DNA from: an uncultured SAR116 cluster alpha proteobacterium
GTDB taxonomy: Bacteria; Pseudomonadota; Alphaproteobacteria; Puniceispirillales; Marisalimonadaceae
DNA: 64,000 nt
Direction: 5' to 3'
Assembly: GCA_902550555.1 (NCBI GenBank)
Contig: CACCZR010000003.1
Coordinates: 61,931-125,930 of the forward strand
The notes under the pieces were generated by a model. It was not told where the DNA came from and made no database searches. It saw only the letters and a program-made list of their open reading frames with translations. The position numbers and the translations under genes are program-made. Positions 12,267 to 33,191 of the stretch are shown here, piece after piece. Within the stretch, counting starts at the first letter, position 1, and each line of letters starts with the position of its first letter.

Positions 12267-12749
12267 TTAATCTTTTTTATCTTCAGTTTTGACTTCAGGT
12301 TTATTCTCAACTTCCTTTTTAGAAGATGTTTCAGCAACTTTATCTTTTGATACTGAAACGACATCCTTTTTTTCGTTAGTTTTTTTCTTAACTTCAATTT
12401 TTTCTACTATTCTGGCTGCTTTACCTCTTCTATCTCTTAAGTAGTATAGTTTAGCTCTTCTAACTTTACCTTTTCTAACTAAAGTGATAGAAGATATTTT
12501 TGGAGAAAATAAAGGAAAAACTCTCTCAACACCTTCACCGTATGAAATTTTCCTTACTGTAAAACTTTCATTTATGCCTTTTCCGCCACGAGCTATACAA
12601 ACACCTTCAAAGGCTTGAATTCTTTCTCTAGTTCCTTCAACAACTTTAACATCAACTTTTACAGTATCTCCAGGATTAAAATCAGGTATTTGTTTACCAG
12701 AGCTTAATTTTTCTAATTGTTCTTTTTCAATTTTTTCAATGATATTCAT
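12267..12749 (-). CDS. rplS: 50S ribosomal protein L19 with charged C-terminal tail
   Basis: L19 sits at the 30S-50S interface. The core, residues 1 to about 120, is standard: [36 protein letters not shown] and [15 protein letters not shown]. It then continues for about 40 residues rich in Lys, Glu, Asp, Ser and Val ([16 protein letters not shown] and on to the end), with no predicted fold. L19 of most bacteria ends near residue 115-125. S16 in the same operon also has an added tail. Spacing of 48 bases after trmD holds an AGAGG ribosome-binding site. Confidence 0.97.
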
Positions 12750-12797: not shown

Positions 12798-13484
12798 CTA
12801 CTTCAATTTTAAATATTTTTTCCAAAGATCTGGTCGTCTTTTCATTGTTATATCCTCAGATTGTTTAATTTTCCAGTTTTTTATTTTTTTATGATCTCCT
12901 GATAATAATACATCTGGTACTTTGTAATTTTTCCATTCCCTGGGTTGTGTGTAAAGAGGGTATTCTAACAGATGATTTGTAAAACTTTCTTCGTTTAAGG
13001 TCAGTGGATTTCCTAAAACATTTGGTAAACACCTGACTACACTATCAATAAGAACCATGGCTGCCAAATCTCCACCAGACAATATGTAATCACCAATACT
13101 AATTTCAATCATGTTGTAATGTTTGATAACTCTTTCGTCTACACCCTCATATTTTCCACAAACTAAGGTCATCCCATCTAATTTTGATATTGAATTACAT
13201 ATTTGGGCATCTAATTTAACACCCCTTGGTGACAAATAATAAATTGGAAAATCATTTGATTTCAAAGAAAAAAGAGCTCTGTCTATTACATCTGGTTTAA
13301 TGACCATTCCTGGTCCACCTCCAAATGGCGAATCATCTACTCTTTTATTTTTTTCTGTGAATAATTTTAAATCTGTTATGTTTAAATGCCATTTACCATT
13401 TTTTCTTGCTTCACCCAATATAGAAGACCCTAGAGGACCTGGATATAAATCTGGAAATAATGTTAAAATATTAGCTGTCCACAT
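12798..13484 (-). CDS. trmD: tRNA (guanine-37-N1)-methyltransferase
   Basis: It methylates G37 next to the anticodon of tRNAs reading CNN codons, preventing +1 frameshifts. It is a SPOUT-class enzyme with a trefoil knot: LSPRGVKLDAQ, CGKYEGVDERV, and SIGDYILSGGDLAAM are its SAM-binding loops, and GNPLTLNEESF precedes the C-terminal domain. Length 228 is normal. It starts 2 bases after the rimM stop, in the widespread order rpsP-rimM-trmD-rplS. Confidence 0.97.
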   Translation of the reverse strand: MWTANILTLFPDLYPGPLGSSILGEARKNGKWHLNITDLKLFTEKNKRVDDSPFGGGPGMVIKPDVIDRALFSLKSNDFPIYYLSPRGVKLDAQICNSISKLDGMTLVCGKYEGVDERVIKHYNMIEISIGDYILSGGDLAAMVLIDSVVRCLPNVLGNPLTLNEESFTNHLLEYPLYTQPREWKNYKVPDVLLSGDHKKIKNWKIKQSEDITMKRRPDLWKKYLKLK

Positions 13485-13486
13485 TT

Positions 13487-13993
13487 TTAATCTATTAATG
13501 TTTTAATAGAAGAAGATAAAGTAATTAACCCTAAATCTCGATCTATATTTATAATAAAATTTTTAGAAAAAGGTAGCATCTTTTCTTCATTACCATGTTT
13601 AACTCCAATTATTGGACCACCTCCAAAATCATAAAATTTTACTAATTCACCTAAACACAAACCAGATTCTAATTCTACATTAAAACTTATTAAATCATTT
13701 AAATATATTTCATCTTCATCTGTTTCAGTTAATGATGATCTACAAATAAAAATATCTGCTTTAACAAAATTTTTAGCCTCTTCCATAGAATTTATGCCTG
13801 GTAACTCGCAAATAAAAATAGATTTTTTATTAAACTTTAATTGTAGAGAACTAAAACTAACCTTATTAATAAAATATTTATCAAAGTTAAAAAGATCTTT
13901 TGGATTTTCTAAAAAACTTTTGACTTTAATATAACCCTTGAGGCCGTGAAGGCCCAAAATTGATCCTGCTAAAATAAATTTTTTTTTTTCAAT
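13487..13993 (-). CDS. rimM: 16S rRNA processing protein RimM, with a non-canonical start
   Basis: RimM binds ribosomal protein S19 and assists 30S maturation. The N-terminal barrel strand GSILGLHGLKGYIKVKSF and a C-terminal PRC-barrel with YDFGGGPIIGV and EKMLPF are recognisable. The first canonical start in frame is TTG at 13957, which lies inside the conserved first strand and would delete it. Extending upstream to ATT at 13993 gives EKKKFILAGSILGLHG and a family-like length of 168 residues, 5 bases after the rpsP stop. No ATG, GTG, TTG or CTG exists in frame between 13957 and the upstream stop at 14020. An 11-A run lies in the disputed stretch, so an indel is possible. Confidence 0.85.
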   Translation of the reverse strand: MEKKKFILAGSILGLHGLKGYIKVKSFLENPKDLFNFDKYFINKVSFSSLQLKFNKKSIFICELPGINSMEEAKNFVKADIFICRSSLTETDEDEIYLNDLISFNVELESGLCLGELVKFYDFGGGPIIGVKHGNEEKMLPFSKNFIINIDRDLGLITLSSSIKTLID

Positions 13994-13998
13994 CTTTA

Positions 13999-14499
13999 CT
14001 ATGATTTTTTTTCTTCTTCAGCAGGGGCTTCAGTCTTTGCTTCTTCAGCAGGGGCTTCAGTCTTTACTTCTTCAGCAGGGGCTTCAGTCTTTGCTTCTTC
14101 AGCAGGGGCTTCAGTCTTTGCTTCTTCAGCAGGGGCTTCAGTCTTTACTTCTTCAGCAGGGGCTTCAGTCTTTACTTCTTCAGCTTCTCTTTCTAAACGT
14201 TTTTTTCCAGGAGCACTTTTTTTAGGCTGTTCATTAATAATTGGTTTATCAACTAATCCATCTTTAGAAATTAACTTGCTAACTCTTAATGTCGGTTTTG
14301 CCCCTTTTGATATCCAATATTTTACTCTTTCTGCATCTATAACTAATCTTTCTTTATTATCATGATCCACCATTGGATTGTAAGATCCAATTTTTTCAAC
14401 AAATTTACCGTCTCTTGGTGATGTTGCTTCTGCAACTACAATCCTATAAAAAGGTTTCTTTTTAGCTCCACCTCTTGATAATCTTATTTTTAATGCCAT
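13999..14499 (-). CDS. rpsP: 30S ribosomal protein S16 with repeat-containing acidic tail
   Basis: S16 is an early-binding small-subunit protein. The core starts [20 protein letters not shown] and ends near residue 90 (the WISKGAKPT motif is near 65). After a basic linker, [10 protein letters not shown], come six copies of a nine-residue unit, EEVKTEAPA or EEAKTEAPA, ending EEEKKS. The total is 166 residues against the usual 80-110. The tail is Glu/Ala/Pro rich and probably disordered. Some alphaproteobacterial S16 proteins have shorter Ala/Glu extensions, so the tail is an exaggeration of a known trend. Confidence 0.96.
14013..14174 (-). repeat. 27-bp tandem repeat, six copies, in rpsP
   Basis: Six back-to-back 27-base units, beginning at 14013, 14040, 14067, 14094, 14121 and 14148, encode the nine-residue repeat of the S16 tail. 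A partial seventh starts at 14175. Copies are nearly identical and differ mainly at a base that swaps Val and Ala (GTA/GCA on the coding strand). The unit length is a multiple of three, so copy-number change keeps the frame. Near-identity at DNA level points to recent expansion or ongoing homogenisation. Confidence 0.97.
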
Positions 14500-31244: not shown

Positions 31245-33191
31245 TTAATTACTAAATAAAGTTAGAATATCTGTCTTTACATTTTCAATAGGATATGCCC
31301 AGTCATTATACTTTGTCTGTTGAAATATTTTAACTGATGGATACCAAATACTTTTATTTTTTTCTGAATTCCAATTCCACAACCTCCCTTTACCTAAAGG
31401 TAATAATAAAAATGTTTTCTTACCTAATGCACCAGCAATATGTGCATTTACATTGCTACATGTGATTATTAAATCACACGAATCTATAATTGAAGCTACA
31501 CCAATTATATCATTATAATAATCTATACCTTTAAATTTTTGAATTTTTAATCCTGTATTTTCAAATAGAGTATTTCTATCTTCATCTGAATTTTTATACT
31601 CTAAATCTAAAAAAGTTAAATTATTTAATTTTAAAATAGGTAAAAAACTCTCTAGATTTATACTTTTATTTTGCCCAATTTCTTCATTTTTACTTGTCCA
31701 AGAAATTCCTACAATAATTTTGTTTTGGTTATAAAAAGTGGATTTGACTTTTGAACTAATTTTTGAGTTTATGTCAATATATGGGAAATTAACTTTTTTA
31801 AAGCTTTTAAGATCTTTCCTAAATAAATAACCCAAATCTCCTAATGGTAAATGAGCATCATATTGTTCTTCTTTTATGATAGTTTCATTATCTATGAAAT
31901 TTATATTTTTATGCTTTCTTTCAAAAATTTTTATAAGTCTTTTGTCGAATTTAACTATAACATTTTTTGATAGATTAGAAATTTCAGAAAATATTGAGCC
32001 ATACATAATTTGATCTCCTATTCCTTGTTCAGACCATATTAGTATGTTTTTTAATTCATTTAAGCTGGTAAGTTGTTTTTTTGAAGATTTAAAGCGAATT
32101 GAATTAAAATTATGATATAACCATCTGCTTTGAAAATTATTCCACCCTTCTTTAAACTCTTTATTATAAATTTGCATTTGAGCTAAATTGTATTTTGTTT
32201 CATAGCTGAATGGATCTATATCTAAAGACTTTTTTAAGAGTGAAATTCCTTTTTTAACTTCTCCTAAATGAGAATAGATAATTCCTAACTCTAAAAATGC
32301 TTTAGAATTACTATTGTCAATGCGTATCACTTCATTTAAGAGATTAATACATTCATTAAAATTATTTTGATTTTTGTATATAGAGGATAAAGCGATATAA
32401 GCATTAACAAACTTTTTATCAATCTCTAAACATTGTTTAAATATGGTTTCCGCTTCATTATACTCTTTTTGTGTTTTTTTTAAAATTCCTTCAAGATATA
32501 AAACTTTAATCAAATTTTCATTCTTTTTTTCAATATATATTTGAGATAAAATTTTCTTTGCTTCATTTACTTTTTCTAAATCAATTAATCTTTCAAAGAA
32601 TTCAATTTTATAATCTAAAGTGTTAGAATTTGATGTGACTAACATTAATTTTTCAAATATTGATAATACTTTATTATAATTTTTTAAAATAAACAGAATT
32701 CGTGCATAAGAGATTAAAGCAAACTCATTTTTTTCATCAATCAATAAAGCATACTCTAAAAATAATTTACCTAATGAGAATTTACCTAAAATCTTATAAG
32801 TTTTTGCTAAATTAATATAAAAAATTATATCATAAGGATTTGAAAGAATGGCTTTTTCTTGATAAATTTTTGCTCTTAAAAAGTTTTTTTGTTTACCATA
32901 AAACTCACCTAGATATGAATTTATATAAGCATTTGTTGGGTCATACTTAATTAATGTATCAATCTGAATTTTAATATCATTTATATTTTTTTTTTTATAT
33001 AATTCTTGAATTTGATCAGAATTAATTTTCATTTTCTTTATATACTTTAGTTTATTATCATTAAAAAAATGATCTAATCTCTTGTTTTTTGAATACTTAG
33101 TTTTTAAATCATTAATTAAATTAAAAGCTGATTGAATTTTTTTTTCTCTAAAATTCTTTTCAATATTAGACAATTGTCTTTCAATTATCAT
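31245..33191 (-). CDS. TPR-containing glycosyltransferase-like protein
   Basis: About 370 residues of tetratricopeptide repeats (for example ALLIDEKNEFALISYARILF and SLDIDPFSYETKYNLAQM) are followed by a GT-B-like C-terminal domain with ILIWSEQGIGDQIMYGS and, near the end, CSNVNAHIAGALGKKTFLLLP, as in heptosyltransferase/OGT-like folds. I start at ATG 33191 (648 residues), which overlaps the lolA stop by 11 bases; an upstream TTG at 33203 is possible but less likely. Linkage to lolA may be fortuitous, because this gene belongs with the island by function. Confidence 0.75.
   Translation of the reverse strand: MIIERQLSNIEKNFREKKIQSAFNLINDLKTKYSKNKRLDHFFNDNKLKYIKKMKINSDQIQELYKKKNINDIKIQIDTLIKYDPTNAYINSYLGEFYGKQKNFLRAKIYQEKAILSNPYDIIFYINLAKTYKILGKFSLGKLFLEYALLIDEKNEFALISYARILFILKNYNKVLSIFEKLMLVTSNSNTLDYKIEFFERLIDLEKVNEAKKILSQIYIEKKNENLIKVLYLEGILKKTQKEYNEAETIFKQCLEIDKKFVNAYIALSSIYKNQNNFNECINLLNEVIRIDNSNSKAFLELGIIYSHLGEVKKGISLLKKSLDIDPFSYETKYNLAQMQIYNKEFKEGWNNFQSRWLYHNFNSIRFKSSKKQLTSLNELKNILIWSEQGIGDQIMYGSIFSEISNLSKNVIVKFDKRLIKIFERKHKNINFIDNETIIKEEQYDAHLPLGDLGYLFRKDLKSFKKVNFPYIDINSKISSKVKSTFYNQNKIIVGISWTSKNEEIGQNKSINLESFLPILKLNNLTFLDLEYKNSDEDRNTLFENTGLKIQKFKGIDYYNDIIGVASIIDSCDLIITCSNVNAHIAGALGKKTFLLLPLGKGRLWNWNSEKNKSIWYPSVKIFQQTKYNDWAYPIENVKTDILTLFSN

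Follow-up and report, generated by a model that had tools for sequence, protein, structure and literature searches.

The 64,000-nucleotide stretch of DNA analysed here, hereafter the window, carries on its minus strand the genes rpsP, rimM, trmD and rplS (Table 1), and their order is that of the E. coli trmD operon (PMC4378010). The identity of rimM is firm. Its product has the RimM N-terminal domain and the PRC-barrel domain, with matches to PF01782 (53.2 bits, cut-off 23.5), PF24986 (33.6 bits, above the cut-off) and TIGR02273 (104.2 bits, cut-off 66.2), and the gene has rpsP upstream and trmD downstream, as evidenced by PF00886 and PF01746. The reading frame follows a TGA at 14020-14018, is open from 14017 and ends with a TAA at 13487. 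Its body is free of internal stops, is 93% identical to that of the nearest relative (genome G002) and shows a dN of 0.029 and a dS of 0.076 against the locus of this relative (L003).

The genome from which the window comes, G000, is a SAR116-cluster assembly of 65 contigs that total 1.6 Mb, with 69% completeness and 0.06% contamination. The records of its relatives are mostly those of SAR116 single-cell genomes, and from these records and the same profile of G000 we infer that the window stems from a single-cell genome as well. In the adjacent rpsP, a C-terminal acidic tail is encoded by 6.5 copies of a 27-bp repeat (EAKTEAPAE) at 14009-14184; a repeat tail is also present in genus-mates, with a copy number that apparently varies.

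Table 1. Features of the rpsP-rimM-trmD-rplS region, in coordinates of the window
Feature	Position	Strand	Evidence or remark
rpsP (bS16), with acidic repeat tail	13999..14499	-	PF00886, 96.4 bits; its end lies 6 bases upstream of the rimM TTG
ATT, proposed start	13991..13993	-	in the rimM frame solely through the missing base
TTG, ancestral rimM start, out of frame in the assembly	13990..13992	-	in-frame TTG in 9/9 readable genus-mates and 42/44 readable family members
A11 run, where readable genus-mates all have 12 bases	13979..13989 (plus-strand T)	-	comparison of TTG-TTT spacing
rimM body (TTT ATT TTA GCA GGA ... to TAA)	13487..13978	-	intact, purifying selection; PF01782, TIGR02273
trmD, ATG start, next gene of the operon	12798..13484	-	PF01746, 167.4 bits
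rplS (bL19), last gene of rpsP-rimM-trmD-rplS	12267..12749	-	ORF; assigned by order and sequence

The start of rimM in the window and in its relatives

In the assembled sequence, no ATG, GTG, TTG or CTG stands in the rimM frame upstream of a TTG at 13957, and this first canonical start is located inside the conserved first strand of the protein. Following the frame from 14017 down to this codon bears out what a sequence-only reading of the DNA had reported, namely that the conserved N-terminus is without a canonical start, and its description of an open frame from 14017, an ATT at 13993 and a run of eleven A residues at 13979-13989 was accurate.

We located rimM in ten genus-mates, at protein identities of 57-93%, and could read its start in nine of them, the contig of the tenth beginning within the A-run. 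While the assembly of the window has no in-frame start 5' of the conserved N-terminus, all nine readable genus-mates do have one, a TTG at the same place, followed by four codons and then by TTT ATT/ATC TTA, with a gap between TTG and TTT of exactly 12 bases; in the nearest relative the region reads TTG AAT AAA AAA AAA TTT. Judged from these aligned start regions, an in-frame TTG common to nine genus-mates is more than chance. Family-wide, with the start position taken as 9 codons upstream of the first Gly in the G...GxHGxxG motif, TTG was found in 42 of the 44 readable members (41 by script and one, L012, by eye) and GTG in the other two, both of which belong to one other genus, and in none of these 44 did an ATG or ATT serve as the start of rimM. 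Beyond the SAR116 family, an in-frame ATG is found near this position in most rimM genes. The start of rpsP is ATG wherever it was seen across the family loci; for trmD, most g4 genomes have GTG and g1 has ATG. For the genomes compared, the non-ATG start of rimM is thus a clade-conserved feature, as opposed to the ATG of rpsP.

The window has the same TTG as the nearest relative but one base fewer behind it, TTG AAAAAAAAAAA TTT, and an alignment of the two sequences places a single gap at the run that follows the TTG. As assembled, this TTG (13992-13990) is out of the rimM frame by one and opens a frame of its own, TTG AAA AAA AAA AAT TTA TTT TAG. The sequence-only reading had offered as an alternative that the A-run hides an indel of one base and that TTG 13992 would then join the frame, and had proposed aligning the start regions of relatives as a check; with TTG, 12 bases and TTT in nine of nine readable genus-mates against TTG and 11 bases in the window, the alignment backs the main point of this alternative, with the indel in the run or beside it. 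The gene would start at TTG 13992-13990 as it does in the relatives, and one base absent from the run after the TTG would push the start codon out of frame. We consider it almost certain from these comparisons that rimM is a gene with a TTG start and one missing base, regardless of how the base came to be missing. The missing base is either a sequencing or assembly error or a small private mutation, not a novel mode of protein initiation, and nothing novel in kind is required for explaining the start of rimM.

Two other starts have to be weighed against the TTG. The ATT at 13993-13991, five bases past the TAG of rpsP (14001-13999), had been put forward as a weak or regulated start, and its position in the rimM frame so close to the rpsP stop does recommend it. 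The best known AUU start, that of infC, is conserved and subject to autoregulation by IF3. The window's ATT resembles it in standing in frame near the expected start, but this in-frame position is not conserved: the ATT of the ATTG lies outside the rimM frame in all readable genus-mates, where the TTG is the start, and an ATT start is likewise seen in 0/44 readable family members. The codon is in frame in the window because one base is missing, and the same loss takes the TTG off-frame. A genuine, infC-like non-canonical start with weak or regulated RimM synthesis is accordingly very improbable, and was discarded since the ATT is off-frame and the TTG is the start in all readable genus-mates. 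Still more improbable is initiation at the internal TTG 13957, the likely prediction of a gene caller; this codon is the first canonical start in the rimM frame but would yield a RimM without its first strand. It was discarded because the conserved FILAGSI strand would be lost, because the codon at this position is variable, being GTT or ATT in several relatives, and because the TIGR02273 score drops from 104.2 to 97.0 bits if the protein begins there. A wrong annotation is thereby avoided: RimM should be entered neither as a truncated protein from 13957 nor as one started at ATT.

Origin of the missing base

As rimM is otherwise intact, the loss of the base must be either recent or not real, and the undecayed body of the gene is compatible with an artefact, with a very recent event or with a rescued frameshift. 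Starting from the nearest relative (AATAAAAAAAAA), a single step suffices if the T between two A-runs is dropped, and this is the shortest path; on an alternative path this T changes to A, giving A12, and one A is lost thereafter. For the source of the missing base we lean towards an error of amplification, sequencing or assembly in a single-cell genome as the likeliest. One SAG workflow produced 3.0 indels per 100 kb (PMC8443664; PMC5712423), so that one would be expected per ~33 kb, and one was observed in the ~23 kb compared; this published rate makes an artefact likely. The comparison with relatives covered 1-19.9 kb and 33.2-36.2 kb of the window and is blind to shifts very near gene ends, and within these two parts it revealed no further frameshift. 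Private one-base differences are also present in other genus-mates (L004, G002), which speaks for an artefact as well. On the opposite side, the other genic A-runs of at least 11 in G000 are in frame in 12 of 12 cases, so that long runs are evidently called well in general in this genome and a general miscalling of homopolymers in the assembly is unsupported; moreover, a homopolymer miscount would more typically turn A12 into A11 than remove a T between A-runs. An exact DNA search of viral contigs returned no match.

We hold it possible, but less probable than an artefact, that the deletion is real, private to the cell or its lineage, and that rimM is expressed from the TTG via slippage. In this case, ribosomes initiating at the TTG would stop after seven codons at the TAG. 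By analogy with known systems, the rimM frame could be restored by RNA polymerase adding one A within A11 to give A12, or else by the ribosome slipping -1 at the heptamer A_AAA_AAA, which is present in the TTG frame with the TAG stop soon downstream, and by either route the product would begin M-K-K-K-K-F-I-L-A-G. The run at 13979-13989 is long enough for this, given that nine A/T already slip with high efficiency in vivo (PMC5009743). In Buchnera, transcriptional insertions mostly add one base within an A/T run, and they increase exponentially as the run lengthens, up to 11 (PMC5574713), and Blochmannia retains several genes that are frameshifted at poly(A) tracts but intact elsewhere (PMC3017870). 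The rimM gene of the window is like these cases in its AT-rich genome, its long A-run and its indel of one base in a conserved gene that is intact elsewhere and whose frame one extra A restores; it is unlike them in that the shift is private to one genome, occurs in a free-living marine bacterium, stands right after the start codon and is read from DNA alone. A homopolymer run of at least nine that is readable in several frames is also found in dnaX of Thermus thermophilus (PMC5009743), but there slippage is programmed and leads to two products, whereas no conserved frameshift is seen for rimM.

The low dN and dS of rimM, with no trace of decay, would suit a frameshift rescued by slippage, and a second genome of the genus, G002, is likewise frameshifted at A11. 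However, the shifts in G002 are equally private, and that of rimM occurs in none of the genus-mates, a comparison made with genomes of other species, and has no visible evolutionary history. A shared or programmed rimM frameshift was discarded on the grounds that no readable genus-mate has it. Slippage, which the sequence-only reading had also brought up, keeps a possible but secondary place: it is relevant only if the deletion is real, and no relative carries the frameshift. That A11 is real and has become fixed in the SAR116 species of the window, with all RimM made via slippage beside a conserved weak TTG, appears unlikely; if it were the case, a gene for ribosome assembly would be rescued by slippage on poly(A) in a free-living bacterium of the ocean. 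The peptide FILAGSILGLHGLK, if found, would back a full-length RimM.

RimM output and other A-runs in the genus

In E. coli, the translation efficiency of rimM and trmD falls short of that of the two genes for ribosomal proteins in the operon, the ribosome density on rimM and trmD being approximately ten-fold below that on rpsP and rplS (PMC4378010). The SAR116 family is set apart from the E. coli trmD operon by its TTG and GTG starts of rimM, and these conserved codons may be a means of lowering RimM output. A non-ATG rimM next to an ATG rpsP across the family agrees with what is known of the demand for the two proteins, that for RimM being far below that for bS16.

A second A11 run of the window, at 32986-32996, is in frame within the gene for a TPR protein of 652 aa. 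Within the genus, identity to the relatives of this protein is only about one half at most, much lower than for rimM. In the genus-mate G004 (L004/L056), 7 A instead of 8 stand near the end of rpsP, which shifts the final codons for the tail of bS16. In G002, two genes are frameshifted at A11 runs (L127/L187 and L143/L200), in this genome only and with intact homologues in relatives; judged from their sequences, they encode a MocA-like nucleotidyltransferase and a membrane metal-dependent hydrolase. With private frameshifts at A11 in two genomes of one genus, pseudogene calls at such runs should be checked in AT-rich single-cell genomes.
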